DNA from: Pycnococcus provasolii | Lineage: Eukaryota; Chlorophyta; Pseudoscourfieldiophyceae; Pseudoscourfieldiales; Pycnococcaceae | DNA: 64,000 nt | Assembly: GCA_938743325.2 (NCBI GenBank) | Contig: OW568864.1 | Span: 248,001-312,000, forward strand | Direction: 5' to 3' | Shown: positions 3,849 through 51,035 of the stretch, in pieces | Layout of the letters: every line of letters starts with the position of its first letter | Numbering within the stretch: position 1 is the first letter of the stretch | The notes under the pieces: model-generated | Database searches by the model: none | The model's input: only the letters and a program-made list of their open reading frames with translations | What the model was told of the DNA's origin: nothing | Position numbers and translations under genes: made by a program

Positions 3849-4167
3849 ATGATGCGGAAGACGACAACCACATTGACAGCCAACTTCCCAGTAGAAGCTT
3901 GCACGCCTACTTCTGGTTCTTTCGGAGATTTGCCTGCGAAAAAAAGACTCAAATACGCAAGTCGAGCAGATGCTGCCGCGCAAGCACCAGCACCCCCTCT
4001 CGCTATGAGCATGACGACGCGCGTGACGAAAACCGCCACCGCCACCACCATCACAACCACAAAGACGACAGTGCACGCGACAACGGGACTCGACGCTCTG
4101 CTCGTCTCGGCATCCATACTTGACAACCCAACGTCGACGCTCAGGTTCTTGCAGCACCAGCAGCAGC

Positions 4168-4199
<32 letters not shown>

Positions 4200-5480
4200 C
4201 AACAAGGTGGTGCCGCATCTGCCGCCGCCGCCGCCGCCGCTGCTGCTGCTGCTGAGCCTGATATTGAGCCTGACACTGAAGTCCTGCCACCGTTCGATCC
4301 GTTGCTGGTTGTGCCTAGTCAACCACTTAAACTCACGCCCGAAAATCTGAAGAGAGCATACAGCCTGCCAATCAAGGATGCGGCCAAAGCTTTCGGCATC
4401 GGTGAAACGAAGATTAAGAGGTACGCTAGAAAGCAAGGTGTGACGCGCTGGCCGTACCGTAAGCTCGAGTCGCTCAGGACTGTGCAGAATAACCTGTCGA
4501 AGAACGCAAAAAAGCATCCAGCCACATCGAAAGCTCCTGAGCTCGTTCAGGAGGTGCAAAAACTGCTGCAGAAGGAGGGCGTGAGCATGGCTAGTGAGCC
4601 GAACTGCAAGTTGTCGCACGAAGTGCTCACGCTTCGTCAGAGCATCTTCAAGACAAACTACAAGGAGAAGCTGCGTGCAAAAAAGTCAAAGGAGAGGAAG
4701 AAACGGATACCGCCACCGTCACTGCCACCGCCACCGCCGCCACCAGCACCGCCGCCGCCGCTGCCACTGCCGACGCAAATGCCGCTGCCACCGCCACCGC
4801 CATTGCCACCGGCACCATTACCGCCACTGCCGCCGCCGCCGCAGCTGCTGCTGTCACTGCCGCCTCCTCCTCCTCCTCCTTCTCCTCCTTCTCCTCCTTC
4901 TCCTCCTCCTCCTTCATCTACGCCTCCTCCGCCTCCTCTGCCTCCTTCACCTCTGCCTCCTCCGCCTCCTCCCACCCCTTCACCTCCTTCACCTTCGCCT
5001 TCGCCTCCGCCTCCGCCACCACCACAACGACGACGACGAGGACGACGACCACGACGAGAGTCACTGCCGCCATCCCCACCGCCACCTGCACCACCTGCAC
5101 CACCATCACCACCGCCACCTGCACCACCACCTCCACCACCTCCATCACCGATATTGTCACATTTGCCCGTACCACCGATGCTGCAATCTCCACCACCATC
5201 ACCACTACCATCACTTTCACCACTGCCATACTATGCGTCAGTAGGATTCCCTCCACAATACTCTTCACCTGCCCATTATTTTGAGATACATCACCCTCTT
5301 GTTGCTGCGGTGGCTCTTCCACCGGCATCCCCGTCCCCACCACCGCCTCGTCGCCATCGTGTTTATGGACATCGGAGACGCGCTGCTCCACAACCACTGC
5401 CATCTACGCCTATTCTACCATATTTCCCTTCGATTGGGGTGCCGTCCCCTGGTGGTGATAACGAAGGTGTTATCTTCTAA
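3849..5480 (+). CDS. RWP-RK domain transcription factor with polyproline tail
   Basis: A 543-residue protein starting at the ATG at 3849 (a second ATG follows at 3852). After a Thr-rich, His/Gln-rich and Ala-rich N-terminal region there is an RWP-RK domain at about residues 162-212. It includes LPIKDAAKAFGIGETKIKRY and the RWPYRK core followed by LESL. RWP-RK proteins are plant and green-algal DNA-binding factors for nitrogen response and gamete identity. No PB1 domain is seen, so it belongs with the short RKD-type rather than the NLP type (inference). From about residue 285 to 460 the protein is almost pure Pro with Ser, Leu and Ala, encoded by CCR/CCN repeats, including an RRRGRRPRR-like basic patch. 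Homopolymer codon runs (CAA, CAC, GCC/GCT) at about 4150-4250 suggest repeat-slippage growth. Confidence 0.95.
4160..4252 (+). repeat. Trinucleotide runs encoding His, Gln and Ala tracts
   Basis: Adjacent CAC/CAG, CAA and GCC/GCT codon runs encode poly-His, an eight-Gln tract and an 11-Ala tract within the RWP-RK gene, upstream of the DNA-binding domain. Confidence 0.9.
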
Positions 5481-25490: not shown

Positions 25491-28400
25491 ATGGAGGACC
25501 ATCCATCTTCGGAGTTGGAGTTGAAACGCCCCTTCTCTCAGGTGCAGGTGGCGTCTGCGGCCGCACCAAAGCAAGGAAAGGAAGGAGGTACGGGAGCAAG
25601 TTTTCTCGCTCTCAAAGCTGCCAGCCGCTTCCGCGTAGGCTCGGGGGCGTTGTTTAGCGAGATCGAGTCAGCGGCTTCGGGGTACTTTCGAGGCTTGGTG
25701 GACAGATATGCGCCGTTTGTGAGGGTCTGCGCGTGGTTGCTTCTGCTCGGCACGTACTTGGGGCTCATCCAGCTCCAGCTCACGCCGGAACGGATGTACC
25801 AAGTGAAAGAAGCCGTGCAAATAGCAATTACAAAGGGCGTCGAGCCGGCCGCCTTGCTCGAAGACCGAACGCCCTTGGACGGCCACGACGGCCCGCTGAC
25901 GTGGCTCATGGGAAGTGTAGTCAAGCCGAGCTGGCGCGACCCTGTTTGCGGAGACGGCATCTGCGAAGCGCCGTACGAGGAACCGAGCTACGGAAACGAC
26001 CGGTTCGGGTGCCGCGCGGACTGCGGGGTTGCAAAGGACGCGGTGTCCACCCTCGTGCGCGTGACGAGCGACTTTCGCCACCCCGCGCTCGCTCAGGACC
26101 AGCTGCGCGAAGTCGCGACGTGGAACCTCTGTCGCGTTGACGAAGACAGGCTAGGTGCCGGCTACGACGACCTCTGCTTGTTCCCAGACGGCGGCGTGCC
26201 CTTCCCAAGTGAGGGAAGCGGAACGAGCGAGGCGACAACACTCATAGCTGGCCAGTGGTACCTTCGTGTCGACGGCGATCCCGCGGGACGTACCGCGGGA
26301 CTTCTGCTTGACGGCAGTGTCGCTGACTCACAGGGTGTGCTAGCCGCTCGCGATGCTGCCGAGAATGGAACGCTCGGCACACGAGTCGTGCTGAACGCAT
26401 CAGATTCTTGGGGCTACTGCGAAACGCCGAAACGCACATTTCGCAGCGCGGTACCAATTCCTTCAACGCCGTCCGGCGGAGGAGCACGGCGTAAGCTTCT
26501 AAGTTGCGGTTACACGGAATATCGATGCCGTGGCTGTGTGTGGTTCGTGTGCGGTGCATGGAGCGGATGGAGTCAGTCTGACTGCTCTAATTCTGAGAGA
26601 GAGACACGATGGATTTCGACTACATGTCCTTCACCACCACCTCCATCTCCACCTCCATCTCCACCTCCATCTCCTCCACCTTCACCACCTCCATCTCCAC
26701 CTCCATCTCCACCTCCATCTCCTCCACCTTCACCACCTCCATCTCCACCTCCATCTCCTCCTCCATCTCCACCACCTCCATCTCCTCCACCTTCACCACC
26801 TCCATCTCCACCTCCATCTCCACCTCCATCTCCTCCACCTCCATCACCACCTCCATCTCCACCTCCATCTCCACCTCCATCTCCTCCACCTTCACCACCT
26901 CCATCTCCACCTCCATCTCCACCTCCATCTCCTCCACCTTCACCACCTCCATCTCCACCTCCATCTCCTCCTCCATCTCCACCACCTCCATCTCCTCCAC
27001 CATCTCCTCCACCTTCACCACCTCCATCTCCACCACCTTCACCGCCACCTCCTCCGCCATCTCCACCATCACCGCCACCACCTCCTCCTTCGCCGCCACC
27101 ACCTCCTCCTTCACCGCCACCGCCTTCACCACCTCCATCTCCACCTCCATCTCCTCCACCATCTCCTCCACCTTCACCACCTCCATCTCCACCTCCATCT
27201 CCTCCTCTATCTCCTCCACCTTCACCACCTCCATCTCCACCTCCATCTCCATCTCCTCCACCTTCACCACCTCCATCTCCACCTCCATCTCCTCCACCTT
27301 CACCGCCGCCACCAGCAGTGGCATCTGTCAGTGCGTCTCTGACGTTGCAGGGCATTAGCATGGCAACTTTCTCGGGACCTCAGCAGACTGCATTTAAAGA
27401 TGGCATTGCATCTACCCTCAACTTGGACGCTGACGCCATCACCATCACCTCCATTACGCCCGCAGACTCGCGACGACGTCACACGCTAGAGGTTGGTGTC
27501 ACAGTCACGATGCGTATCGCGCTCGGTCCCGAGGAAAAGCCAACCGCCATCTCGGAGAGTCTTATCAGTGCTATCGAGAGCGGCTCATTGTCCACTCAGC
27601 TTGTAAGCGCAGGCCTCACTGGCGTCACTGGAGTAGCTGCGAGCGGATCTGTGCAGCAGGCGTTACCCCCCGCACCCTTTGCGCCACCGCCAAACCCTCC
27701 GCTACAGCCACCGCCAAACCCTCCGCCAAATCAACCGCCGCCGCCGCTGCCAGCACCGCCACCGCCAGCACCACCACCGACGAGCCCTCCGCCGCCACCG
27801 GCGCCATCACCTCCACCGTTCCCAATGCCATCGCCGCCGCCGCCGCCAGGACCGCCGCCGCCAAGCCCGCCGCCGCCAAATCCGCCAAGTCCTCCTCTTC
27901 CGCCGCCAGGTCCTCCTCCTCCGCCTGCGCCATCGCCGCCACCATTACCCCCTCCCTCGGCACCGCCGGCACCTCCGCCACCTGCAATACCTCCGCCGCC
28001 ACCACCCAATCCAGCTTTGCCGCCCGCTCCCCCTCCAAATCCGCCGCCCGGTCCTCCACCAGGCACGCCGTCTCCAAGCCCGCCTCCATTTCCTCCACCG
28101 CCGCAACCCGGTTTGGTCACGGAGGTTTCCGACGAGGCGATTCCGGATGTGAGCGAGGAGGATTCAGAGGCTGAGAATGTCCCGGCGACGCCCCCGGCGA
28201 CGCCCGATATTGTTCATCCTGTGCTGACTCTGAAGGGCGACGAGGAGGTATTCGTTGACCAGATGAAGAAGTATAAAGATGATGGTGCATCGTGCATGGA
28301 TGACCGAGATGGCCCTTTGTTCGTGAAACCTCCAGAAGGCATCGCAAAAGTCAAGACTGAGGAAGCGACGCAGGCAACTTCGCCCTTTGTGCTGATCTAC

Positions 28401-31044
28401 ACCTGCGTCGACAAGGCGGGAAATGAGGCGGATTCGAAGACGCGTCGTGTGCATGTTCGCGACGCATGCGCGGAAGCCTCTCAGCAGACTGGTCAGAGTG
28501 AGAAACTTTGCCTGGAGTACGACCCGCCCGTTTGCAGCGCGTACGGATCCTGTGCAACAGTGTCGCCCACCGTGACGGAAGACGAGCCCGACGTGGCTGC
28601 ATTTGAACCTGAGGTTGACACCGAGCCGCCGAAACTCGCGCTTGTTGCCCTAAACTCTGAGAGCAAGCTTGCTCGCACAACTTCGGGCAAACTAGTGATG
28701 GCAGAATCTATTGTGCAAGGCGAGAAGTACGAGGAGCCGGGCTACGTCTGCCTTGACGGCACGAAGGACATCAAGGAGCGCGTAAGCGTGTTTGGTGGAG
28801 GAGATAAGGTGGATACGAGTGAGCCATCTGTGGATGGCAAACGTGCAATTGTTATCTACAACTGTGACGACAAGAGCGGCAACAAGGCGGAGGAAGTGCA
28901 AAGATGGATTACGGTGACACCCAAGTGTCCTGAGCAGGGTTCTGTGATTTGTGAAGATGGAAGCTGTTCGTCGTCTGACGGATTCTGTGCGAGCGCGGGA
29001 ACAGTCGGTGTGGCCACTGATGAAGATGCACCCACAAAGAAGCCAGACGAGCCGCCAACGATCTTGCTGCAAGGCCTCGCGAAGGTGGAGATCGATGCAG
29101 GGCAGGCGTATGTCAAATGCCCGACAGGCGAGCCCTTGTCGTCAAAGTGTGACCGAGGCGTTGTTGCATCAGATAAAGAGGATGGTGACCTCTCGCCATT
29201 TGTCATGACATGCAATAAGGAATATGCGAAATATGGGCTCGAAGGCTGTGGCATCAGCGATGCTGGCACCTACGAGGTTAACTACGTCGTCGAGGACAGC
29301 GCGGGCAATGTTGCTCAGGTGAAGCGTACCATTGTAGTTCTCGCGGGCTGTTCAGCGGGGGAAACGCGGTGTGCAGACGGTGTGACGTGCACGAAGGATG
29401 GCGCACCGTGCGAGGGAGATTTTGGCTCTAACAGCGAGACTCTCGGTGCTGATCCAGCCCCCAGCAATCAGCCACCCAGCGTCGTGCTCATCGGCTCGAA
29501 GGCAATCAAGTTGAAGCGTTTCACGAAGTACGAACGTTGCCCCGATGGCACGGCATCGTCGGACGAGGCGCCTTGCGAGGCTGGTGCGAACGCCGTGGAC
29601 AACGAAGACGGGGATCTTGGCGCCAAGCTGCTGTCATGCCCACCAGATGACTGCCTGGATGTTGGATGTCCAGGCCATGAGTTCCAGTCGAAGGGTTTGG
29701 CTGGCTGTCTCAACACGAGCGCGACGGTGCAATCAACGTTCGTAATCAACTTTATGGCATTTGACTCTGCAGGTGCTTACGCTAGTGACGTGCGAACCGT
29801 GACGCTCATTGAACCGTGCCCAGAGGGCCAGCACTGGTGCCCAGCAAATGATCCAAACGGTCGGTGCGAGACAATGACTTGCGAAAAGCTTGAGGCTCTC
29901 CAGAACAGTCTTCCGTCATCTGCGGGCGGCGTTGATGATGGATTTGGGCCAGTGGTGGCGCTACGCGCCCCGGCGGAGATGCCCTTCGTGCTGCTGTACG
30001 GTGCGAAGAGTCCAAGTGGCATGCTTCGTGGTTGCGTTGTAGAAGGCGCAAGTTTTCCTGAGTGCATCGCTACCGCAATCGACGCTGTGGATGGCGACAT
30101 GAGCGCTACTCTTGTGGCAGTCGGATCATCGTCGGAGTGCACAGACGCTTCTCTTGTCGATGGCCTGTGCGCGCCAGGTGCGTACGACTTTGTTCTGAAA
30201 TCCTACGATAAAGATGGTCGTGAAGGTGTCCTTGATCGCGTGCAATTTCGAGTAGTGGAAGGTGCTTCGGCAAATTACCGCGTGCGCGTGAAAGGCACGA
30301 ATTGCGCCACGCTTCTGGACTCGACGACAGAGGAAAGCGCCGCGGTGAGAGAGGATGTGGCGTCTAAGATAGGATACACGCGTGGGCACATTCGCATTCT
30401 TGAGTGCACCGCGGTTCCCAACTCCGAGAGTGGTGATAGCGAGGTCACGGTGAATGCTGTGATTGAGAAGATGTCTCGGCGTCGCGCGCGCTCTCTCCAA
30501 GAAGACGACGATCTTGTTGTTGTGGGTGCAATCGAGAGCAGTCCACCGTCATCTGGCCCTGAGGCAGAGGCGCGGCGCCTCACGGCTCTGCAGAGAGGGA
30601 CGGAGGCACTGCTTCGGAGAATTGAGGATTCGCGTGCCGAAGTGCTGGGTGCGACAAGCCTTGTCGATGCCCTGTCAGTCACATCGTCCGCCTCATCCGT
30701 TGTCGAACTGTTTGACGATATGCTCAATTCCACGAAGGTTGAGCAGAGCATAATTTTGGCAAAAGGTGAGGAGTTGCTCGATCTGACAGTTGCGCTTGCA
30801 CAGGCACTCGAAACCTTGTCGGAGACTTTCGATGCGGGTAATACCGCACTATCTCTTGACAACGCAGCGCGCGAGCTTGAGGACATCACGTCTCGGGCAT
30901 TGAATGTCATTTCACGTGCTGATCAGGTGACAAAAAGCAATGTTCCGGACTGCAATCGTGGTGTGGAAGGTGCACGGTACACCTACTATTCGGTGCTTCC
31001 ACCGCCGCAGGTGCTGAATGCGTCGACAACAACGACCACGACTT

Positions 31045-31106
<62 letters not shown>

Positions 31107-34100
31107 TTTGCAGCAGTAGCAACAACGACAACGACAACCTCTTCAACGGACAATCAAACAACTACTCGCGTGACTGCGCGTAAGCTTCTGCGTGCTGGTG
31201 GAAGAAGCTCAAAGGGCCCCCTTCAGATTGAGAAAAAGAACGTAGAATCAATTGACCCCGAAGAAATTTGGGCTGGCTACAACACCCTGGATGACGATTT
31301 CCAATCAATGCAGATATCCGAGCTCTTCTATGGAAGATACGCCAAGCCTCGTACTGTTGGAGCTGGCGGTGCGATGCGCATCATTGGAGGTGTATTGATT
31401 TACCAGGACAGAGCTGAATACAACGTTGGTTGCCCAGTGAATACGAAAGTCCATCGATCTGGTCGATTTGATTCGTTGCATCCTCCGAAGACTTTCTGTT
31501 CTCAAGCGCACAATTTGAACGCGTATGGAGTCGACCCGATATTCTCAAGAGCTAGCGTCAACGGAGAGGAAGAGCCACTGTTGTACAAGCCAAAGCTTGG
31601 CGCATTTAAGGGGGCATTCTACAATACGACCACTGAACTATCCTCGGTGAAACAACCTTATGCGTTTTATCGTGACGAAGAGGTTGGTGGAGGATGGGAT
31701 GTGTTTTTAGACGCCACGGCAAGCGAGGTGGCAATTAGGCGTTTGATGTGGTACCTGCGAGCGGCACGCTTCACGGATGCAAAGACGAAGAGCGTAACGA
31801 TGCGCATTCCCATGCATCACACCAAGGCGGATGCACTGGCAGACTTGCGCGTGAAATTCAACTTCCAGTCTGACGGCGGGATCCACCCAGCAATTGACTT
31901 TCGCACGATTCCTCTTGACCATTACTTCGACGGTTCGTCCGAGAGGCTCATACTCTTTGCTGTGGACGTATTTATTGCGACTGTTTCCTTCGTGCTCTGC
32001 CTGAACAGCTTGCTCAACTTTCTTCTTTACATGCGTGACTTGTCCAATGCTGAGATCAAGCGCGAGACTGGGGTGATTGTGCGTCGCACCTTCACCATCG
32101 GTGTATGGGATGTGGCTCGCGAAACGACTAACTTTGTGGCGCCCGCACTTCTAGTCGTTGGATATTCGATGCGTTTCACTTTCAACTTTCGCTTCTCGGA
32201 GCAACTCTCTTACGATAGTAGTTATCGCTGGTACGATCAGGAATCAGCTGACGCTCGAATCCTGCTACCAAAGAGACGAGGGGATGCTCCAGCTCCATTG
32301 GAGGGTTACCCGCTTGGAGCATTCCGTCACCAGCTTTCGCGTGATGCCTCTGAGGCACAGACTTTCGTGGATTTTTTGCAGAATGTTGACAACATGGGCA
32401 TGCTGTACTACACGTACAGTATGATGCAATTTCCCATCGTGATGCTGATCATTGCTAACATCTCGCGTCTCATGGGATACTTCGAGGGATTCTTTCCTTT
32501 GCTGCGCGCAATGCAGAGATCCGTAGAGCCTGTTCTCTTGCTTGCCGTTGTTATGATGCTGTGTTGTGTTGGCTGCGGCTTTGCGTTACATCTCATCGTA
32601 GGCGATCGCGTCAAGACGTACCAGACGATGCTATCGTCCATCGAGTTTATGGGCGAGTTTCAGTTGGGCGAAATGATTGGTATCACGCATACAGTTCTGT
32701 TCGGAAAGGAAAAGGGCGTCTTACTGGGTCCAGGTGAGTATGCATCGATTGTGTTCATCTACATTTTCTTCCCCTTCATCACTTTATTCGTCATCATTCA
32801 ATTCGTCGTCGCAATCTTCACCGATCTATTTTCTGAGGAGCGCGAGCGACGGCGTCAGAGTGACAAATTGAAAGAACTGTCTGCATCAAAGGGACGCTCA
32901 CGCGCTATCGAGCTTATGCGTTCTGGGTCGCTTTTTGCCAGGCTACGCACGCATGTCAGTGCAGTGCTCTACACGTTTGGCTGGCGCAACTTAAGCGCAT
33001 ACGTGCTGTCGCTGAACCCAAAGTTCCTCGACGGTTCGCCTGATGCCCCAACAGGATTCCGAACATGGAAAGCTGCCTCAAATCTGACACCTGCTGATAA
33101 CTTTCGTGCGCAGAGTCCTGCTGGGGAAGGATTCCTCGGATCGGTGGTCAAAATACACGAGAGACTTGACAACTTCTTTTCTCATCCATTAGATTCCTCG
33201 CTTCCCCCGGATGTCGAAGAGGGCTCGAGCACGAGCGAGAGCGACGAGTCGGGACTGGCATTTTCACCAGATGAGATTGCCGGGAAAGAAGTCGATTACG
33301 ATAGTAGTGGCGGCTTGAAGTCCGATTCAGCGCGATGGCTTCGCATGAATCAGCGAGATCGCTGGGAATTGCAGTCGCCAACCATGGGAAACATGGCCCA
33401 TGTGGCACTCTCGCAGATTTTTTACACGCTCCAGGAGTATTGCCACAACGACGCACTGAAGGATGAAACCGTCAACGGGAACGGTGGGAAAAACGCAAAT
33501 GCGGAAATCATTCAGATGCAGAAGGCGATGCGCATTGAAAACTTGGCAGAGCTGTCAGCGCGCCTCGAGCTGTCCGTACTAGACATCATGCTCTTCGAAC
33601 ACCTCGATCAGCCAGATGAGGCGGCGCTGGTGTCGTCGGTGCGTCTCAGTCCAAAGGCTCGGAAGATTTTGGGTAAGAAAGCGTGCCTGCGTATGGCACG
33701 TGAAGTTGTGAAGGACTTTGGCCACCCTCCAGGTGCGGAGATTGATCGATCTACAGGTCTCGATCTTGTTAACGTCGTACTGATGCGCGCGCGAGACAAC
33801 GCGCGTGGACTGTGCTCGCTGTCGCGCGACGCGATCAGCGCAAACATGGAATTCGATGACATTGCACGGCATTACATCGACAGAGTACCAAGATGGACGG
33901 TGCCAAATTCAGGACGTCCGCGCAAACGTCTCACGCTCGGGCGCCTAGTCCAGCTCGGTCTTGAGAAGGCGTCGAGCCCCATCTGGCGTGGCATCGGCTA
34001 CACGATGCGCCAGATCATCGGTTGCATTGCGGTGAGCGATCCAACGGGGGGCGCGAACGAGCTGATTAATATGCTTGGGAAACAGCCTCTTACGAGGGTT

Positions 34101-34328
34101 AGAGCTGCGAATGTGGGCAAGTTCACAGGTGCGCAGGAGATGAAACAGTCACAGACGGTCACGCTGCACGAACTGTACGCATCGTTGGGATTGGAGGAGG
34201 ATTCTCTCGAAGAAGAGTTTGTCGAATTCCACGATTGGCCCGCGGCAGTAGGCGCCTTAATGGAGAATGACTCCTCTCAGGCTGCCTTAACTCCGAATGA
34301 CTCCACTCTCGCACTATTCTCTCAGTGA
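25491..34328 (+). CDS. PKD2: Polycystin-2-type channel with giant pherophorin-like ectodomain
   Basis: A 2945-residue protein in a single uninterrupted ORF. Order of parts: an N-terminal TM helix (residues about 75-95); a Cys-rich GDGICEAP-type LNR-like segment (153-178); a Trp/Cys segment resembling a thrombospondin repeat (340-373); a (SPPP)n tract (375-608); a beta-rich domain (609-723); and a second Pro tract (725-873). Then come about five Ig-like DUF5011-style repeats with EDGDL and SAGN motifs (905-1592), a Glu/Ser-rich helical region, a poly-Thr tract (1843-1891) and the polycystin cation channel (1923-2453) with its large first loop. Channel helices include LILFAVDVFIATVSFVLCL and FPFITLFVIIQFVVAIFTDL. 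A cytosolic tail of about 490 residues follows. Algal PKD2 relatives act in flagella and Ca2+ signalling; a wall- or matrix-anchored mechanosensor is inference. Confidence 0.93.
26614..27315 (+). repeat. Coding minisatellite for Ser-Pro-Pro-Pro tract
   Basis: CCACCTCCATCT and CCACCTTCA units repeat for about 700 bp in frame inside the polycystin gene, giving (SPPP)n. All six frames are open here, producing His/Leu-rich and Met/Glu/Val-rich spurious ORFs. Confidence 0.97.
27664..28110 (+). repeat. Second proline-rich coding repeat
   Basis: CCGCCGCCA/CCTCCG-type codon repeats encode a PPPxP-rich tract that is less regular than the first and includes Ala, Asn and Gly. Confidence 0.9.
31021..31107 (+). 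repeat. Hexanucleotide (ACGACC)n encoding poly-Thr
   Basis: About 12 near-perfect units of the hexamer ACGACC, in frame, give an uninterrupted Thr run just before the channel domain of the polycystin. Confidence 0.95.
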
Positions 34329-34866: not shown

Positions 34867-37800
34867 ATGGAGGATGAGGAGGACATGGAGGAACGCACGC
34901 GTCATTCATGGAGGCTTCCAAGAATGGCGCACGACGACCATGATGACGTGGCTGGCGTGGTGAATGACGCTCCTGCCTTGTCTCCTAGTAGGCCTCCTTG
35001 CATGCCGATGCCTAGTACCGTCGTGCCTCCTAGTGCTATGAGTGCTCGTGAGGAACCATCCTTGTTGGAGGAGGAGCTTGTGGAGCCTGTTGTGGTGGTG
35101 CCTGGATGTGATGAGCTTGTTGGTGGGGAGCTTGGGGAGGAACTTGTGGGGAATCCATCAAGCATTCCTGTTGCTCTTGGTGGTGCACCTCACCCTCCTC
35201 CGCGTGGGGATGTCGCGATGATGGAGTTGAACGGGAATGAGGACGATGATGTGCCTCTTGAGGAAAATGAGAATCAGAATCAGCACCTTCGTCACCACGA
35301 TGGAGGGGCGCCCATGGTTCTGGATGCGGCGATGTACTCACCTCCCGCTGGTAGGGCCCCCTCTGGAGAGGCGTGGAACGCGATATCTGCGGTGGCGCCT
35401 GCGCAACCTCCAAGGCCGTTGTGCCCGATGTGCAAAATCAGGCACTGCGAAATAAGAGGCCAGAACGAGAAATGGCGCACAACATGCAGCGCCTGCAGAA
35501 AGTCGAGCGCCACAAAAAAGCAAGAAATGACACGGAGAGATGACCAAGTGCAGGAAGAGGAGGAGGTTGATGTCGAGAAGTGGGTCGACGAGGTGCTTGG
35601 GCGCGACAACAAGCCTGACGAAGCGACAATGATGACCAACGACGAACCAGCTCGTCAGAAAAGAGCAGCTGGCGCACTGCCGTCACCGCCACCACCGCCA
35701 GCGCTACCGTTACCACCACCGCCGCCAGCGCTACCGTTACCGCCACCGCCGCTGCCACAATCTAAATACTACGGCGTATACAAATACCCTGACTACGGAA
35801 CAAAGATGTATTTCTCTTTCATATTGAAGGGCAAGGCATACACTGCTCATCCAGCCAGTACAGATGCCGTATCGGGTGATGCAACTGCCCTTGCATACAT
35901 ACGTGATCATGCCATTCGTCACTTCGGATCGGCGTCGGCGCTGAACTACCCGCAGGTTGAGCAACTACCCGAGCAGTACACTGCAGCAGGTGCTGAACTG
36001 CTGGAGCAGCTGCGCCGCAAAATCGAGAAACAGCCAGAGCATTTGGACGACGAAAGTCTCGCACTAGACAGGCCGAACGCGCCACCACCGCCGCCAGCGC
36101 TACCGTTACCGCCACCGCCGCCGCCACAATCTAAATACTACGGCGTATACAAATCCTCTGACTGCGGAACAACGAAGTATTTCTCTTTCAAGTTGAAGGG
36201 CAAGGCATACACTGCTCAACCAGCCAGTACAGATGCCGTATCGGGTGATGCAACTGCCCTTGCATACATACGTGATCATGCCATTCGTCACTTCGGATCG
36301 ACGTCGGCGCTGAACTACCCGCAGGTTGAGCAACTACCCGAGCAGTACACTGCAGCAGGTGCTGAACTGCTGGAGCGCCTGCGCCGCAAAATCGAGAAAC
36401 AGCCAGAGCATTTGGACGACGAAAGTCCCGCGCTAGGCAGGCCGAACGGCGTGCCGCCCGTGGCTTCACTGGAGACGCCGACACCGACACCGGGACGGAC
36501 AGGTGATGACGAAGCGCCATCGACAATTCCGGCGACCATGACCGTCGACCCTGTCGATGCGTCGAAGAGGGTGCTTCCCATCGGCGTATATAAAAGCGGA
36601 ACAAGGTTGTATTTCCAATTCAGCTTGAAGGGCAAAGCATACAATGCTAATCCAGCCAGTACAGATGCCGTATCGGGTGATGCAACTGCCCTTGCATACA
36701 TACGTGATCATGCCATTCGTCACTTCGGATCGGCGTCGGCGCTGAACTACCGGCAGGTTAAGCAACTACCCGAGCAGTATGCTGCAGCAGGTGCTGAACT
36801 GCTGGAGCGGCTGCGCCACATAATCGAGAAACAGCCAGAGCATTTGGACGACGAAAGTCCCGCACTAGACAGGCCGAACGGCGTGCCGCCCGTGGCTTCA
36901 CTGGAGACGCCGACACCGACACCGGCACGGACAGGTGATGACGAAGTGCCGTCGACAATTCCGGCGACCATGACCGTCGACCCTGTCGATGCGTCAATGC
37001 TGCGCGTAGACTCTTCTCAAAAAGAGCCTTGGCGAAGAGACGCGGCGAAATTTGCCCTCGAAAACGCAAGCGATGTGGAGACGGCGCAAGGATGCAAAGC
37101 TGCTGAAGCAGGAGATCGTGTGCCGATGGCAGCAGAATGCGCAAGTGGTGAAGCGAGGAATCATATCCACAATCCAGAGCCTAACCCTTATCCCACGGGA
37201 AGCACCAAGCAGGCGGCGTACGAGGTGCTACTCAGAGCGACGCCGGAGGAAAGACAGGCGGGACTGCCGCTCGAGGAGTTTGTCAGGCGCATACGTACTA
37301 TGCTAAAGGTTGACGAGAATATGTGGCCTGCAAACACCAAGACGCCGGATGGAACGCTGCACGCTGCAATGGCAGGAGACTCTTGCTTCCTGAAGACGAT
37401 AAAGAGAACATTCACCCTTTCCGGCTCAGCGCCGAGTAAAATCGCCGGGTACGGCAATCGGGCGCAACAACTGCCAATGGAACAGACTTACGAGGACGAT
37501 AGATACGCCACCATGATGTCCAGGCGCGATACTGCCAAATCAAAAGATGAGAAGACATTGCTCACATACGAGGAATTGATTGAGAGAGAATTCGAACAGA
37601 AGCGCAAGATAGCCGAAGTGAATCGTTCCAATGTCGCTGCCAAGAAACAGAAAACGTCGCATGTGGTGGTGGAAGACGAAGTTCTCGATTGTTCCGTGGA
37701 TTCGTTGGAGAGGCCAGACGAAATACCTCCGAATCCATTTCTCGCTATCAAGAAGCCTGACGCATATGCTTTTCCATTGCCACCGCCACCGCTATCGTCA

Positions 37801-40059
37801 CCATCGCCGTCGTTGCCGCCTCCGCCTCCGCTGCCGTCATCGTCTTTTCCGCCGCCTCCGCCTCTGCCGCCGACAACACCACCGGATCAAATCCAAAATT
37901 CTCTACAAAGCGTGCAGATTGCGACGCGTATGAAAGCGATTGCATACGAGGTGCTGGCTAACGCCACCTCTGGTGAGCGTGAGACTGGATTGACCATTAC
38001 AGAAATAATGCAGCGATCGATCCACGTGAGCGAATCTTTAGGTGAAGATGTAGAATTTGCGTTTTCTACGACTGTCACGCTTGCAATGCTCATTGCCGCC
38101 GGCGCACTCACTCCAGGCGTGGACAAGCTCTCCTGTAAGTGCTTCGACAACACGCACAACGCGGAGCTTTTGCAGGATGGACGCATCCGTTACCTGGAAA
38201 TGACGTTCGATTCGCCGAGCGCGTTCAGCGTATACTGCAAGCGAATCTATAACCCAACAAGGCGCGCGGACGATGGTTGGGGATCGGTTACATACGACGG
38301 CGTGACGCTCAAAGACATCAAAACAAAGGCGATGGAGTCAATGAAAGACAAAGACGCCCTTAGCAAGGAAAAACTACTCGAATCCTTGAACTCGGATAAC
38401 TGCTTCGCAAAGAAAGCTTCGGGACGCTTCACACTTAGCTACAGCGTTCGTGAAGAACGAGACACTCGTCCATGGTCAGGACCAATTCCTCAAAGCTCAA
38501 GATCGAAGAGACTTCCTATCTCGAAGGAAAGGTGCTCTGGCTTCGCTGACTTTGTTGCGTTCATCACGAGTGCTGCCGATGATGTGCACGACAGCACAGA
38601 GAATGATTGCTCGAAAGAGTTACCCCGCGGCGTACACCGACGTGCCGGACGTTCCAAAATGTTTTTCCAAATCAGCTTGAATGGCAAAACATACAATGCT
38701 TATCCAGCCAGTACAGATGCCGTATCGGGTGATGCAACTGCCCTTGCATACATACGTGATCATGCCATTCGTCACTTCGGATCGGCGTCGGCGCTGAACT
38801 ACCCGCAGGTTGAGCAACTACCCGAGCAGTACACTGCAGCAGCTGCGGAGCTACTGGAGCAGCTACGCTGCAAAATCGGCACGCAGTCGAAGCAAGTTAA
38901 CAACGCCGAGGCCGCCTCTACAGCACCAAATCAAGCGCAATGCACCGCGTCTGGGGCACGAGTCGTCGAGAGGTCCCCTCATGACCCTCCGGCGAGTTGG
39001 TGGAAAACGAGGTCCAAGGACAAGGGTGTCGCAACCTCTTTCCTTGGATGGCGCGTTGTCAAGCGTTTCAACGGCAAGTCGTATCATGGCACGATTGACG
39101 GATTTGATGAGGATGAAGCGTGGTACCACGTCACATTTGATGACAATGACCAGGAGGAGGTTGATCTGAACGAGATTCTATCAATCTCGAAGAGGCGCTA
39201 CTTTCTGTCAAAGCAGATTCCCGTGCTTTGCCAGCTCGATGACGACAACATCCTCACTGAAAAGGTGCTAGGATGCACATTTTCTCATCGTGCCGCTGCT
39301 CTTTTCAAAAGACGGCGCAAGTGGTCGCTCAGGCAGCGAGAGATCAGCGCGGTGCGCATTACCTCTCAAGTGCCTCACGCACAAGACTTGCGGAACGTTC
39401 GAGATGCAGTCATGGCATACCTCGTATCGCTCGGCGTGGACGTCGGTGTGTCGCTCGCATATGGGGTGCCGATCAGTTTCCCTCGCGAAGCGCCGTCGCA
39501 TCGTTCTGTCGAGCAATACACGGTCGATTCGTCTGACGCGCGAGTGAGCTTACGCGGCGAATTCGGATGCCGTGCAACGGATATCATTCCTGCGAACACT
39601 GTGATTGGCATTTACACTGGTCACTGCTTTTTCAACGATGAGATGTTCGCGATGATTGAGAGGATGATTGCGCCTACTGACGGCGTGTCACGCCTTAAGG
39701 CGGAGCGGGACGTTGAAAGTGGCATCCAAGAATTCACGCGCTTCAACAGGCAGTCGAAGCGATTCGACGGACCGGCTGCTGGCAAGGGCGAGCTGCTGAT
39801 GGTGAGCTCGTTTGGGGACGACCAAGGCGTCTGCGGCCGAATCAATGATGCCCTTGTCGACGTGTACGATTCGAATGAGCTGGTCGACGACGGGTATAAC
39901 GTCATGTGCGTGGAGGCGGAGCTTCAGGGTTGGCCGTTCTTGTTCGTCTGTACGACGCGTGATGTTCGTGCTGGCTCGGACCTGAGGATGGATTACACTG
40001 GATACTACTGGGAACGAATCGGCGAGATGAAACGCCGACTGGATTTTGTACAACTGTAA
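34867..40059 (+). CDS. AP2-like / winged-helix / Tudor-like / SET-like chromatin protein
   Basis: A 1730-residue protein from the ATG at 34867 (MEDEEDMEERT). Parts seen: an acidic N terminus; a CPMC...CSAC zinc-ribbon-like motif (about residues 185-212); three AP2/ERF-like units (300-363, 423-486, 572-630) and a fourth at 1255-1313. The units have an initial GVYK strand and a helix ending FGSASALNYP, similar to AP2's YRGV and FGxxAxLNFP. HARE-HTH-like segments lie at about 781-853 and 1022-1085, and a weaker one at 1138-1191. A Tudor/PWWP-like module (GWRVVKRFNGKSYHGTIDGF) is at about 1388-1441. The C terminus (1557-1722) looks SET-like: GCRATDIIPANTVIGIYTG, GRINDAL and TRDVRAGSDLRMDYTGYYW. 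A DNA-binding histone methyltransferase is the natural inference; NHS-type catalytic residues are altered (INDAL), so activity is uncertain. Confidence 0.85.
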   Translation: MEDEEDMEERTRHSWRLPRMAHDDHDDVAGVVNDAPALSPSRPPCMPMPSTVVPPSAMSAREEPSLLEEELVEPVVVVPGCDELVGGELGEELVGNPSSIPVALGGAPHPPPRGDVAMMELNGNEDDDVPLEENENQNQHLRHHDGGAPMVLDAAMYSPPAGRAPSGEAWNAISAVAPAQPPRPLCPMCKIRHCEIRGQNEKWRTTCSACRKSSATKKQEMTRRDDQVQEEEEVDVEKWVDEVLGRDNKPDEATMMTNDEPARQKRAAGALPSPPPPPALPLPPPPPALPLPPPPLPQSKYYGVYKYPDYGTKMYFSFILKGKAYTAHPASTDAVSGDATALAYIRDHAIRHFGSASALNYPQVEQLPEQYTAAGAELLEQLRRKIEKQPEHLDDESLALDRPNAPPPPPALPLPPPPPPQSKYYGVYKSSDCGTTKYFSFKLKGKAYTAQPASTDAVSGDATALAYIRDHAIRHFGSTSALNYPQVEQLPEQYTAAGAELLERLRRKIEKQPEHLDDESPALGRPNGVPPVASLETPTPTPGRTGDDEAPSTIPATMTVDPVDASKRVLPIGVYKSGTRLYFQFSLKGKAYNANPASTDAVSGDATALAYIRDHAIRHFGSASALNYRQVKQLPEQYAAAGAELLERLRHIIEKQPEHLDDESPALDRPNGVPPVASLETPTPTPARTGDDEVPSTIPATMTVDPVDASMLRVDSSQKEPWRRDAAKFALENASDVETAQGCKAAEAGDRVPMAAECASGEARNHIHNPEPNPYPTGSTKQAAYEVLLRATPEERQAGLPLEEFVRRIRTMLKVDENMWPANTKTPDGTLHAAMAGDSCFLKTIKRTFTLSGSAPSKIAGYGNRAQQLPMEQTYEDDRYATMMSRRDTAKSKDEKTLLTYEELIEREFEQKRKIAEVNRSNVAAKKQKTSHVVVEDEVLDCSVDSLERPDEIPPNPFLAIKKPDAYAFPLPPPPLSSPSPSLPPPPPLPSSSFPPPPPLPPTTPPDQIQNSLQSVQIATRMKAIAYEVLANATSGERETGLTITEIMQRSIHVSESLGEDVEFAFSTTVTLAMLIAAGALTPGVDKLSCKCFDNTHNAELLQDGRIRYLEMTFDSPSAFSVYCKRIYNPTRRADDGWGSVTYDGVTLKDIKTKAMESMKDKDALSKEKLLESLNSDNCFAKKASGRFTLSYSVREERDTRPWSGPIPQSSRSKRLPISKERCSGFADFVAFITSAADDVHDSTENDCSKELPRGVHRRAGRSKMFFQISLNGKTYNAYPASTDAVSGDATALAYIRDHAIRHFGSASALNYPQVEQLPEQYTAAAAELLEQLRCKIGTQSKQVNNAEAASTAPNQAQCTASGARVVERSPHDPPASWWKTRSKDKGVATSFLGWRVVKRFNGKSYHGTIDGFDEDEAWYHVTFDDNDQEEVDLNEILSISKRRYFLSKQIPVLCQLDDDNILTEKVLGCTFSHRAAALFKRRRKWSLRQREISAVRITSQVPHAQDLRNVRDAVMAYLVSLGVDVGVSLAYGVPISFPREAPSHRSVEQYTVDSSDARVSLRGEFGCRATDIIPANTVIGIYTGHCFFNDEMFAMIERMIAPTDGVSRLKAERDVESGIQEFTRFNRQSKRFDGPAAGKGELLMVSSFGDDQGVCGRINDALVDVYDSNELVDDGYNVMCVEAELQGWPFLFVCTTRDVRAGSDLRMDYTGYYWERIGEMKRRLDFVQL
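35764..38842 (+). repeat. Four intragenic AP2-like repeat units
   Basis: The second half of the unit is almost identical at DNA level in four copies starting near 35851, 36220, 36652 and 38704. Copies 1 and 4 are identical over 139 nt (35851-35989 and 38704-38842), whereas the first halves differ strongly. Confidence 0.95.
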
Positions 40060-40760: not shown

Positions 40761-41269
40761 TGTGTGACATACATCTGCGCTTCTTGATGTTTTGGATAAG
40801 TTTGCACTTACTTGTTGCTGTATTATGCATCAATTGATAATTGGGTTTGGATCGACGACGACGACCATGGATGACTTTGGATTTTGATGGATTTTTGGTT
40901 CAAGGGAACGTCGTCGTGCTGCGAGTTGCTGTTGCTATTGTTGTTGTTGTTGTTGTAATACACTACGATGAATACTTAAGGACTACGGTACCTACCGTAC
41001 GGTCGGTGGCGCCATTCATCATACAGGAGCCAAAAACAAACCTGGAAACCCTACTAGCCCTAACCCTAACCCTCTGCGAGCTCCAAAACAGCTTTATATT
41101 TTGTTGTTGTTGTTGTTGTTTTCCTCCTGCGAAGTGCAAGGTGCCCGACCTCACTCCCCTCACTCTCACCGGCAACCGGTGAGCTGAGCAAGATCGATCT
41201 GCGCGCACGTCACTGGTCACTGGTGAGAGAGTGTCGTGTCGATTCGATCGCAAAGAAGAAGTGCGTGTG
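40761..41269. other. Intergenic, 5' region of the first GT29 gene
   Basis: Contains two (TTG)n runs (40932-40955 and 41101-41121), a CCCTAA array (41058-41073) and a CTCACCGG/CCGGTGAG inverted repeat (41165-41183). No gene is seen. Confidence 0.5.
41058..41073 (-). repeat. Telomere-like (CCCTAA)n array upstream of GT29
   Basis: CCCTAACCCTAACCCT about 200 bp before the GT29 start, preceded by a degenerate CCCTACTAG. Confidence 0.9.
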
Positions 41270-42388
41270 ATGGCATTAATGGTGTTAAGAAGCTTGCTGA
41301 GGTCAAGGACGTTGTTAAGGCTCATTTACGTCCTCTACGTCAGCTCGTCCTTGGGCTCCTACGGTGGTGTCGTGCAAGCGCAGGAGGAGGCGACACCCTC
41401 CCGCCCTCCCCCCAGGAAAGTGATACCGAACGCGCGCGCGTGGATGTCGCTCATGGGTACAGGGGGCACGCCCGTGACGGACGACGAGGTGGCCGAGCAG
41501 GGTAAACACGGCGTGGCTGAGTGCACAACCTCCAAAGACTGCCCCATGAGCCGAATGGCGTGCGTGAATAAGGTGTGCCTCTGCCCCGTGCTCTTCCCAG
41601 GAGGGAGCAACTGCAACGCTCCGCGCAAGCCCGTCGATGACTGGTGCCTGACGCCTTTCGAGGTGTGGGCTTCCAAGGGACCGCGCTATCCAAGCCTGCG
41701 TTCGCGCAACGGAGGAACGTTCGGAGGACAGCCGAACGGCGCCATACCACGGTGTGCCGTCGTCGGCAGCTCCGGACGACTCAAGGGTTCCGGAGCTGGC
41801 GCGGAAATCGACGACCACGACATCGTCATACGGTTCAACGAGGCGCCGTCGGGAGGCACGTTTGCCAAAGACGTCGGCAGCTTCACGAGCCTTCGCTTCC
41901 AGAATCGCGATCGCAGCGGCTACGCGCAGGCGAAAGGCGAGGTGTGCGTCGTGCGCAAGGGCAAGTGGTACAAGGGCAGCGACAGCAAGGGAAAGTGCTC
42001 GATGAAGGAGATGCCGCTGCCGGTGGAGCACTTTGTCGACGGGCACTGGAAGGTGTTCCGTCGACCTGTGAACACGCAGTCCGTGCGAACGAGTGGCCGC
42101 GACCTCGGACGTCCTTGGTTCTCCAACGGGTTCACCGGAATTGTCTACGCGCTGCACATGTGCGCGACGGTGGACGTGTACGGGTTCAACTTCGGCGCGG
42201 GGTACTACTTCACGAAGTTCAAGGGTAAGCCGAATGGCTGGGGTCGTCCAGGCAAGGGCCTGAGCCCGCCGAGAAAGGCGCTCGCGACGCGCCACTCGTG
42301 GACGAAGGAGCGCGACTGCCTAGCGACATTAAGCGAGCAGCTGCCGAATGTCGTGAAGGTTCACAAGACAGCAGCATCCTCGTCGTGA
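41270..42388 (+). CDS. GT29 sialyltransferase-like protein with EGF-like segment
   Basis: A 372-residue type II membrane protein from the ATG at 41270: a short N tail, a hydrophobic anchor (about residues 8-30), then a Cys-rich EGF-like segment ([17 protein letters not shown]). The GT29 domain follows. Sialyl motif L is seen as [20 protein letters not shown] followed by [11 protein letters not shown] and [10 protein letters not shown]. Motif S is [14 protein letters not shown] with VDVYGFNFG, and the VS-type motif is [11 protein letters not shown]29 enzymes transfer sialic acid or related 2-keto sugars (Kdo-like in plants) from CMP-sugars in the Golgi. Whether the donor here is CMP-sialic acid or CMP-Kdo is not decidable. 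A second GT29 gene lies 7 kb downstream. Confidence 0.95.
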
Positions 42389-47863: not shown

Positions 47864-49529
47864 CGTCGTCGTCGTGCTTGTTTGCAGTGCTGCTGGTGTA
47901 TTTACGTTCTCAAGGAAAAACAAGAAGATTTTTTTCTTTGTTGCGAAAAAAAAAACCTAGAAGAAGTGAGAGACGAGAAAAGAAAGAAAAAAGGAAGCTT
48001 CAGACCCTCAGAAAAGAAGAAAAGAACCCCGTACACAGGAAAATAAATCCTACGAAAATCTAATATCTATAGAATCCAAAAGGTGCTAGACACGAAGGCA
48101 ATGAGTTCAAATAGACTACTACTGAAGATAGTGACAGTGACACACAACCAGAGACGATGTGCATACCACCAAGTGCTAAAGCTACTACTGTACTATGGCG
48201 GGAGCGAGGAATGCGAAGAATGCGAAATGGAGAAGGAATGACGCAGGGGAGGAGGGGGAAGGGGAAGGGGAAGGGGGAGCGTGCTTCTTCCTTGGGAAAG
48301 CAGGCTTCCCTCCTCAAGACGGTTGCCGTTGAGGGAACCCACGCGGCCTGGTTTTTTTCTACGCCTTCCTTTTTTTAGGGGAAAAACCCCAGGGGTAGGA
48401 AGTAGGGGGCACACGAAGGCTAAAATAACCTGTCCGTAGAGTCGGTCGAATTTCGCCTTGCCCAGAAAAACCAACAAAAACCGGAAAAAACCTTGAAAAA
48501 AGAGCGGGTTTTTAAGAAGTTTTTGAAGGTTTTTTTTCCCGTTGGTGACATAGGTAAAATTTCACCCAAAAAACGAGGAAAACGCCTGGGGATACCGGTT
48601 GGTTCAAACACCTCCTTGAAAGAAGGGTGAGCATCTGCGCACTCCCGCCCTCTTTTGTGTTGTTGTTTTTAACTTTTTTTGGTTGGTTTTTGGTTGGTTT
48701 TCTCAAGGTTTTTGTGTGCTTTTTTTTGGGGGGGGGGGGGCTTTTTTTACAGAGAGTGAGTGCCGTTGACGTTGACGTTGTGCCCTCGTGTGGAAGGAAG
48801 AGGTTGACGTTCTGGAAGACCGTCTTCTCTTCGAACAACAGCATTGTTCAGGTGCAGGCGTCGAGCCTCACTGCCTCAGACCGTCAGACCAAATGAAACG
48901 CGTTGGGAACGTCGATCAAAAAGAAATAAACCAACCTCCTTTTGAAGTGAAGAGAAGTGGAGAGGTCCTCTGGAGGGAACTTTTTCATTCACACCTCCTT
49001 TTGCAGACTTGTTGTCTTGTTTGTCATCAAGACATCATGGACTTGCCTGCGTGAGTTTTGCGGGGAATGTACCGGTATCCCCACCACGCAAGACGTCAGT
49101 CATAGGGAACGGCTAAAAGCCTTTACCTCATTCGAAAGAAAAAAGGACGTGGCGAAGCTTCTCAACGTCCAAGTGTATGGCGCCCATGGATCTGGAACCC
49201 CGCATCAACGACAAATCAAAACACAATTCGAAGGTCGGGGTTTGCTCCAAAAAACAATGAGGCAGGCGCAGGATGACTTTGGGGATACACAATTGAACGT
49301 TTTTGAATTATCGGGCACTCCTCTCTCCTCCCGCGCGTCCGTCTCAGGCAGATCTCAGGCCATCCCGGGACAACCCGACGTCTCTGCGGCCGCGACAGAG
49401 TACTCGCGTTGCGCTGCGCAACCACCACGTGGCTGACTGGCCTTGCAGCAGCAAGGTGTAAGGTTAGGTTTCGTTGTGTCTGAAACAAACCTCCTCCTCG
49501 ACCTTAACACATTTATCGACCGACCAATC
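47864..49529. other. Intergenic region, about 1.7 kb
   Basis: Divergent region with A-rich and AAGAAGA purine stretches (47940-48035), GGGGAAGGGGAAG repeats (48250-48275), a T8/G14/C/T7 homopolymer block (48720-48748) and a possible orphan coding remnant (49055-49436). No telomere-like array is present here. Confidence 0.5.
49055..49436 (+). pseudogene. Possible orphan coding remnant upstream of GT29-2
   Basis: An open plus-strand frame ends at the TGA at 49434-49436. Its translation is non-repetitive and charged (for example ERKKDVAKLLNVQVYGAHGS and QAQDDFGDTQLNVFELSG), unlike the low-complexity shadows elsewhere. No start or domain is recognised. It could be an eroded gene, an upstream exon, or chance. 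Confidence 0.25.
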
Positions 49530-51035
49530 ATGTCTCAACCTCCTCCTCAAGGGGGACATCCACCAAGTCGAAAACCCAAGTCCAACAGGCTGTCGTGGGA
49601 GTTTGTCGATGACGGTGATCTGTCAACTTACGGTGACGGAAAGTCCTCGGGACTCGGACTCTCAAACGTGCGTGCAGGCATCGCAGTACTCCTCATCATC
49701 ATATTCGCACTCATGCTCGTCACGGGAACGGAAATGAGAAAACTGCTCGGGTCGCCGAAGTTCGAACCGCAGACGTGGTTCAAGTCGAAGCCGTACTGGC
49801 AAACGACCGAAGAACTGCAGGAAAGACTCACGTCAGACGGACAGCCGTTCGTCGAGCCGCGCTTCAGGGGACACGATCAGGCGGACGACGACACGTTCGA
49901 CGACCCGGCGATTGACAACCTCGACGACGCGTACAGCAAACGAAGAAGAAGAAGGTCGCTCCTTCAGGAGGAGGAGGGGGGGAAGACTTCCGAGTACGTC
50001 GGAGGTGCTGGTGAGCTTTCCAGCTGGCCGTCGTGGCCTCCGCCACACTGCAAGGGCGTGAACCCTGTCGGCAAGCCAAAGATACGTGGCCAACGACGAC
50101 GACTACGGAGCCTGCTGCAGACTTTCGTCAACAACAACAGCAACAACAACACTGAAAGTCGGCGCAATCTGCTCTCCGAGGCGCCCACGAAGCTGCTCGT
50201 GGACAGCAACCCGCCAGACACCAAGCTGCAAACGGACGTGTACGATTTCCTGCGAGATGTCATGGCCAGCCCGACGATGTGCCGTCCACGAAGCCTTGGC
50301 ACCGCGTCGAAGCTTCCCTGCCGCGGCATGGGAGGTGGGATGAGCTGCCGTGGTGCCACGCTGCCCCTCTGCGAAGCGGCTGGATCACCACCTGTGGGAC
50401 CGAAGGGATTCTCCAAGCCCGTGCAGTGGAGAAAACCGCCGCTGGTCTTTGGCACAGACGATGACTCGATCATGCAGCCAGGCGCGCTAGGCTCGTGCGC
50501 GTTCATCGCGACTGGTGAGACGGTGCTCCGCGGGTCGTTCGGTGACGACATCAACAAGCACGACACGGTGATACGGTACAACACGCCCATCAAGGGATTC
50601 GAGAAGCACGTAGGCACGAAAACGACTCTCATGTGGACCAAGTCGAAGTACGGCACGACGGCGAATCCCACGATGGGATACATCGACTCGGGCGGCGCGG
50701 GTGCCAAAGGTCGGCTCGCGCGTGGCCAGAAACGCTACCGCTCGAGCAATACCGAGGTGCGCGCTTTTCGCGACTTGCTGCACCGCCTCTGGTTCCAAGC
50801 GCGTGGCATCAAGGAAGGCAAGGCGGCGGCAGGATTTACGCGCGCGCTCATGCTCGTCAAGAGCGGGCTGTGCTCGCAGGTGTCTCTCTACGGCTTCCAG
50901 ACGCAATCCAAGGGACGTGCCGGAAAGTACTTCGCGAAAAAGGCGGTCGTGACACCTGGCCATGCGATTGACTGGGACGGGTGGCTTCTCAAGGCGCTCA
51001 TGGACCTCGGCTTTCTGTGTGTGTATGGACCGTGA
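49530..51035 (+). CDS. Second GT29 sialyltransferase-like protein, diverged
   Basis: A 501-residue type II membrane protein from the ATG at 49530: a Pro-rich cytosolic tail, a TM helix at about residues 50-70 (AGIAVLLIIIFALMLVTG), and a long stem with acidic and Arg-rich low complexity. The GT29 domain starts at about residue 320. Motif L is recognisable but diverged: SCAFIATGETVLRGSFGDDI, NKHDTVIRYNTPIKGF and HVGTKTTLMW. The motif S region is ALMLVKSGLCSQVSLYGFQT, and a C-terminal HAIDWDGW stands for the last motif. Much of the segment between motifs is shorter than in the first copy. A Golgi glycosyltransferase role is inferred; the donor and acceptor are unknown. Confidence 0.87.
   Translation: MSQPPPQGGHPPSRKPKSNRLSWEFVDDGDLSTYGDGKSSGLGLSNVRAGIAVLLIIIFALMLVTGTEMRKLLGSPKFEPQTWFKSKPYWQTTEELQERLTSDGQPFVEPRFRGHDQADDDTFDDPAIDNLDDAYSKRRRRRSLLQEEEGGKTSEYVGGAGELSSWPSWPPPHCKGVNPVGKPKIRGQRRRLRSLLQTFVNNNSNNNTESRRNLLSEAPTKLLVDSNPPDTKLQTDVYDFLRDVMASPTMCRPRSLGTASKLPCRGMGGGMSCRGATLPLCEAAGSPPVGPKGFSKPVQWRKPPLVFGTDDDSIMQPGALGSCAFIATGETVLRGSFGDDINKHDTVIRYNTPIKGFEKHVGTKTTLMWTKSKYGTTANPTMGYIDSGGAGAKGRLARGQKRYRSSNTEVRAFRDLLHRLWFQARGIKEGKAAAGFTRALMLVKSGLCSQVSLYGFQTQSKGRAGKYFAKKAVVTPGHAIDWDGWLLKALMDLGFLCVYGP

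Follow-up and report, generated by a model that had tools for sequence, protein, structure and literature searches.

A predicted Tudor- and SET-type protein with AP2-derived, HARE-HTH, and RAMA modules in an alga-like genome

Introduction

A 5.2-kb open frame, here called P0001, lies in the stretch of DNA that we analyzed (the window; 64 kb, positions 248001 to 312000 of the contig labelled C4), and it raises the question of whether DNA-binding-type modules and a histone methyltransferase-type domain are truly joined in one protein, and of what such a protein could do. HARE-HTH and RAMA, two of the domain types considered below, have been proposed as eukaryotic modified-DNA readers, and earlier work reportedly named MPND and ASXL1 as 6mA sensors. 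The genome (32.3 Mb in 46 contigs) is eukaryotic and alga-like in its RWP-RK domains and its many AP2 genes; the other contigs mentioned here are labelled C3, C7, C8, C10, C17, C28, C30, and C40.

Results

P0001 is a single long open frame

The P0001 frame runs from an ATG at 34867 to a stop codon at 40057–40059, encoding 1730 amino acids, and it stays open 5′ of this ATG, with a TTG at 34699. Codon statistics trained on nine other stretches of the window and evaluated in 60-codon windows preferred the P0001 frame over the five other frames in 22 of 28 windows; proline-rich stretches were overlapped by three of the six windows in which codon support was lacking. The 1730-residue frame of the original prediction was thus borne out by the open frame itself and by its codon support. 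Since the sister genes described below are also long single open frames, P0001 is most simply read as one gene without introns. Its features are summarized in Table 1.

Table 1. Predicted features of P0001 and their positions in the window
Feature	Residues	Window positions	Strand	Basis
P0001, uninterrupted ORF of 1730 aa		34867..40059	+	Open frame and coding statistics
Zinc-ribbon-like CxxC-x17-CxxC	186-212	35422..35502	+	Sequence pattern
AP2-derived unit 1	301-386	35767..36024	+	Profile match
AP2-derived unit 2	424-509	36136..36393	+	Profile match
AP2-derived unit 3	572-653	36580..36825	+	Profile match
HARE-HTH 1, close to HARE of ASXL-like gene on C8	777-854	37195..37428	+	Profile and DNA match
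HARE-HTH 2, N-terminal half	1020-1056	37924..38034	+	Profile
RAMA cassette inside HARE-HTH 2 (most likely placement)	1068-1158 (Pfam RAMA)	38053..38323	+	Pfam, PDB, and DNA match
HARE-HTH 2, C-terminal half	1165-1193	38359..38445	+	Profile
AP2-derived unit 4	1254-1337	38626..38877	+	Profile match
PTM/DIR17-type Tudor	1392-1440	39040..39186	+	Pfam PF21743, E 3.2e-11
Divergent SET domain (predicted)	1549-1715	39511..40011	+	Profile-profile and PDB profile

Near the N terminus, the predicted zinc-ribbon-like motif was present as a cysteine pattern, but no Pfam family matched it convincingly, the best being DUF1660 with 18.0 bits versus the 21.4 needed. Within the N-terminal linker, 28 residues (80–107; window 35104–35187) resembled an open stretch at C28:71367–71450, with 89% amino acid identity. 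Elsewhere in the window, positions 25491–34328 hold a 2945-residue open frame that contains long SPPP repeats and is matched by the Ig-like family PF16403, and whose C-terminal part, judged by eye, is apparently membrane spanning and channel-like; two GT29 sialyltransferase-family genes lie near one another (41231–42388 and 49443–51035), and a protein with an RWP-RK domain and a long proline-rich tail is encoded at 3843–5480.

The repeats are linked to AP2 by an intermediate subfamily

The four repeats of P0001 were visible in the DNA as stretches of 300 nt with 76 to 93% identity to the reference copy, and no further DNA copies were found in the genome. Direct recognition of these units as AP2 was rejected: Pfam AP2 (PF00847) matched neither the whole of P0001 nor units 1, 3, or 4 alone, the units scored at most 0.5 bits directly against the canonical AP2 profile, and the unit profile retrieved no AP2 structure from the PDB, its single match being at chance level (E 0.94). 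AP2 itself is abundant in this genome, with 32 Pfam matches at E ≤ 1, 19 of them above the cut-off. Using a hand-made chimeric sequence as the query, we located an AP2 subfamily with a common C-terminal extension at 11 sites spread over seven other contigs, and an intermediate profile was built from 11 units of this subfamily (two being those of L036), with the P0001 units excluded.

This intermediate profile recognized all four P0001 units (18.2 to 20.4 bits) as well as 19 of 19 canonical-type AP2 units (17.3 to 34.5 bits), the latter comprising 18 of the 19 above the Pfam cut-off plus L062, which lies just below it, with a unit carrying a stop codon excluded. It also recognized all 10 units of three C7 genes (the L032 pair and L035; 28.8 to 44.4 bits), and the best of 1000 shuffled controls reached 6.1 bits. 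By hhalign, the intermediates matched canonical AP2 at a probability of 98.5, and the four P0001 units matched the intermediates at 77. Weak scores of single L032 units against canonical AP2 were discarded because shuffled P0001 units reach 10.8 bits against that profile. Since the intermediate profile bridges the P0001 units and canonical AP2, we conclude that the repeats are strongly diverged descendants of AP2; the four AP2/ERF-like units proposed originally thus hold by way of the intermediate subfamily, but not by direct Pfam, canonical-profile, or PDB matches.

By eye, the usual DNA-contacting strand residues of AP2 are replaced in these units, and about six residues are inserted before the helix. 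DNA binding by the AP2-derived units is likely. Among units 1 to 3, dN/dS ranged from 1.0 to 2.1 on 3 to 8 changes, with no silent-site bias and no selection signature on single units, and comparisons of unit 4 with the other units gave 0.37 to 0.59. One of the C7 genes, L035 (C7:268000–277500, minus strand), is a 2014-residue frame that by eye resembles a ubiquitin-specific protease; its C-terminal third contains one AP2-like unit of the same kind.

A second HARE-HTH domain is most likely split by RAMA

Pfam HARE-HTH (PF05066) scored 14.0 bits on the isolated P0001 segment, below the cut-off of 25.9 bits, and P0001 was absent from the three genome matches to this family. Compared with true HARE-HTH of the same genome, the P0001 HARE gave an hhalign value of 95 and a score of 43.7, with 100 shuffles at or below 17.1. 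A profile of three true HARE-HTH loci gave 19.8 bits for HARE 1 and, for HARE 2, 16.3 bits without RAMA and 15.1 bits with it, a small gain; shuffled controls gave at most 7.0 bits. At the DNA level, HARE 1 and its counterpart in L031 shared 80% identity along 274 nt (dS 0.70, dN 0.19), and L031 looks ASXL-like because it combines HARE with an ASXH match that is weak and below threshold (E 6e-4).

Scored with a HARE 1 family profile built from P0001, L031, and L037, residues 1006–1240 reached 22.2 bits with RAMA and 27.8 bits after its removal, and when the C half of HARE 2 was shuffled 1000 times, the score never attained the latter value (maximum, 26.1). Most of this score came from the N half, which gave 21.2 bits alone; the C half gave a weak 4.5 bits alone and is where the case for nesting is least secure. 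On these scores, RAMA most likely sits inside the second HARE-HTH of P0001. The HARE-HTH-like winged helices originally proposed are thus supported as two domains by the same-genome profile, and the apparent splitting of the second by RAMA had been missed.

The RAMA cassette was probably copied between coding regions

RAMA, lacking in the earlier domain list, was a clear Pfam match (PF18755; 64.3 bits versus a cut-off of 35.2, E 1.1e-17), and the P0001 sequence matched the MPND RAMA structure in the PDB with an E value of 2.8e-9 (phmmer). According to PMC9963953, mutation of MPND Ser113, Ser115, and Trp135 nearly abolished DNA binding, and MPND DNA binding was unchanged by 6mA. In our mapping, which takes a chain numbering shift of one into account, Ser1116, Ser1118, and Trp1138 of P0001 align with these three residues.

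By family, at least four RAMA loci were detected in the genome, and comparison of DNA likewise gave at least four. The DNA of the P0001 cassette was 97.0% identical to that of L028 (C10) over 271 nt, 95.4% identical to that of L029 over 260 nt, and 84% identical to that of L033 over 269 nt, and its borders were sharp, similarity dropping to the background level no more than about 15 codons away on each side. For P0001 versus L028, dS was 0.053 over 84 codons with a dN/dS of 0.20, and for P0001 versus L029 the values were 0.054 and 0.88, respectively. The plain reading of these comparisons is that the cassette was probably copied, or gene converted, between coding regions. A mobile repeat was considered and rejected; since every copy found sits within an open frame, RAMA bears no transposon sign. 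L028 combines a near-threshold PWWP, PHD-type fingers, SET, and RAMA and is trithorax-like by our reading, and L033 consists of RAMA plus OTU. L028 (C10, about 894000–900790, 5′ end cut) is itself of unusual architecture.

Tudor and SET recur together with different DNA-binding-type modules

The Tudor/PWWP-like module of the original prediction proved to be a Tudor of the PTM/DIR17 type (PF21743, matched at residues 1394–1440; 43.3 bits versus a cut-off of 27.2), and this family and RAMA were the sole two Pfam families above cut-off in the whole of P0001. The Tudor-SET part had 13 matches in the genome, of which eight covered the Tudor part only and five spanned Tudor and SET. These five genes are P0001, L027 (C3), L030 (C17), and a tandem pair, L032 (C7), and PF21743 matched each of them. 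Across the Tudor-SET part, synonymous sites of P0001 versus all four relatives were saturated; within the L032 pair, dS was 0.06 over 374 aligned C-terminal codons. Ankyrin-like matches of a Tudor-SET profile to designed repeat proteins were set aside, as they cover a short linker only.

AP2-like arrays were found in P0001 (four units) and in the L032 pair (five and four units), and L027 carries ARID; L030 had no DNA-binding-type module by Pfam at E ≤ 0.1. Thus, a recognizable DNA-binding-type module accompanies Tudor+SET in four of the five genes, and this recurring pairing is the chief reason for proposing DNA-guided histone methylation. It suggests that DNA-guided SET proteins may have arisen repeatedly with exchangeable readers. 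Each member of the L032 pair (C7:878835–886508) has the AP2-like array, Tudor, and SET-like part. No viral or prokaryotic relatives of the family were found by tblastn among the 27 viral-contig and 31 prokaryote-genome pattern matches.

Profile comparison identifies a divergent SET domain at the C terminus

Pfam SET (PF00856) scored 14.1 bits on the isolated P0001 segment, below the cut-off of 22.4 bits, and at E ≤ 10 it matched only one of the five family members; all five were absent from the 47 matches of a genome-wide Pfam SET scan at E ≤ 1. When the SET part of the five was aligned with 18 genomic SET domains by hhalign, the probability was 96.6 (P 5.5e-10, score 60.2, 102 columns), and the best of 100 column-shuffled controls scored 20.6. 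Each of the five family sequences scored 11.2 to 17.2 bits against the profile of the 18 genomic SETs, with 1500 shuffles at or below 5.6 bits.

Against the PDB, 28 of the best 30 rows of the family SET profile were named lysine methyltransferases. The top two rows, with E values of 7e-5 and 9e-5, were a SET effector of Legionella and another chain that aligned in the same manner; apart from these two bacterial-effector-type chains the matches were weak, with E values of 0.02 or worse (ATXR5/6, 0.022 to 0.026; KMT5A/SETD8, 0.076 to 0.3; EHMT2, 0.43 to 0.58). The original assignment of a SET-like C terminus thus held in profile-profile comparison but not at the Pfam cut-off, and by these comparisons the C terminus is predicted to be a divergent SET domain.

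The Asn of the NHS motif, the last Tyr, and the YxG segment were invariant in the five members. The NHS His, already noted as altered in P0001, is replaced by Asp in all five (IND in four and VND in one), and IND is likewise found in two of the 18 other genomic SET domains (L086 and L090). Neither pre-SET nor post-SET cysteines were seen in the P0001 SET. Three nearly identical SET domains at C40 and at two places on C7 (L077, L078, and L079) look by eye like a recent expansion of another SET gene.

Discussion

We propose that P0001 may be a lineage-specific "DNA-read, histone-write" chromatin protein, a reading to which we give about an even chance. The four AP2-derived units, the two HARE-HTH domains, and RAMA would target P0001 to certain DNA sites or nucleosomes, and this targeting might be sensitive to modification; its Tudor would then bind a histone mark at the targeted site, and the C-terminal SET would methylate a lysine, most likely on a histone. 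For P0001, we infer from sequence the DNA binding of each module, the DNA feature read, the methyltransferase activity, and its substrate. The earlier reading of P0001 as a sequence-specific chromatin modifier would fit this proposal.

The SET domain may no longer methylate and may instead be a protein- or histone-binding scaffold, which would make P0001 a DNA- and histone-binding recruiter only; the His-to-Asp replacement throughout the family, the sub-threshold SET score, and the failure of the Pfam SET scan to detect any member would agree with such a pseudo-enzyme. The invariant Asn, final Tyr, and YxG segment speak against it, as do the same IND in other genomic SETs and the fact that the SET can be aligned over its length despite synonymous saturation between P0001 and its four relatives, so that we consider loss of activity unlikely, though a serious possibility. 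An active SET might also modify a non-histone substrate, with the N-terminal modules recruiting P0001 to other chromatin or repair proteins. SET enzymes acting on non-histone substrates are well known, but the Tudor and several chromatin-type modules of P0001, together with the ARID of a sister gene, point to nucleosomes, and we regard this explanation as improbable.

The joining of the modules could itself be a gene-model artefact, in which at least two genes were merged, or could reflect a locus in decay. That some sister genes carry only parts of the array would be in line with this, and the single-transcript status of P0001 is a prediction from DNA. Nevertheless, an uninterrupted 5.2-kb frame with codon support along its length, and the recurrence of the order AP2-like, Tudor, SET in two further genes on C7, make such an artefact very improbable. 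Histone methylation by a DNA-targeted P0001 remains the reading that we prefer.

A more specific version of the preferred reading is that P0001 is a modification-sensing histone writer, in which the nested HARE-HTH and RAMA, joined to Tudor and SET, would let adenine methylation or another DNA mark directly control histone methylation; RAMA would recently have been copied, without introns, between P0001, the trithorax-like methyltransferase, and a third gene. We advance this version tentatively and hold it to be rather doubtful. MT-A70 family sequences are present as five stretches at four places in the genome and could be DNA or RNA methylases. Two short MT-A70 frames, L066 and L067 (C10:1500–2400 and C30:94800–95650), are very similar to each other and have AT-rich flanks; one lies near a contig end, and by eye they look viral or mobile.

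Our literature search found no described protein with the domain combination of P0001, in agreement with what had been claimed for it, and at the level of titles and abstracts no AP2 plus SET fusion was found. Single proteins that read DNA and carry SET do have precedents: a bdelloid rotifer SETDB1 variant is described as preferring 4mC-DNA, a case of "DNA-read-histone-write" (PMC8885841), and SUVR5 of Arabidopsis as a DNA-binding SET protein (PMC3469426). SETDB1-type proteins (Tudor, MBD, and SET) resemble the predicted P0001 in having a Tudor, a modified-DNA-reading module, and a SET in one protein, whereas the readers of P0001 are AP2-derived, HARE-HTH, and RAMA rather than MBD, its Tudor is of the PTM/DIR17 type, and its SET differs in the cysteines noted above. 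SUVR5 and, to our knowledge, PRDM proteins fuse a DNA reader to a histone writer, an architecture analogous to that predicted for P0001, using zinc fingers in place of the AP2-derived units of P0001. We know of no Tudor, HARE, or RAMA in SUVR5 or PRDM proteins, and neither MBD nor C2H2 was among the Pfam matches of P0001. Most likely, P0001 follows the logic of SETDB1-, SUVR5-, or PRDM-type proteins with a different set of readers.

The RAMA and HARE-HTH of P0001 are the modules of MPND/MYSM1 and of ASXL, where they are coupled to histone deubiquitination, in contrast to their coupling to Tudor and SET in one chain here; the genome has its own ASXL-like gene (L031) and RAMA+OTU gene (L033). 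ATXR5/6 and KMT5A were the best eukaryotic PDB matches of the family SET profile, but these matches are weak (E 0.02 to 0.3) and the architecture of P0001 is entirely different. With plant AP2/ERF factors the P0001 repeats have AP2 ancestry in common, and they differ in lacking a canonical AP2 score, in the insert before the helix, in the C-terminal extension, and in their fusion to chromatin domains.

Taken together, these comparisons make P0001 a real, well-supported multi-domain protein, with an architecture that we found nowhere described and a plausible mechanism. That two methyltransferase-type genes with no other relationship share a RAMA cassette at 97% identity would clearly exemplify recent domain shuffling, or gene conversion, between chromatin regulators with no help from introns, and if the modification-sensing version were true, this genome would swap DNA-mark readers among its chromatin writers. 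The modules united in P0001 are usually separate in animals and plants; in this alga-like eukaryote, P0001 is a candidate for tying DNA reading, which may extend to modified DNA, to histone methylation within a single protein.
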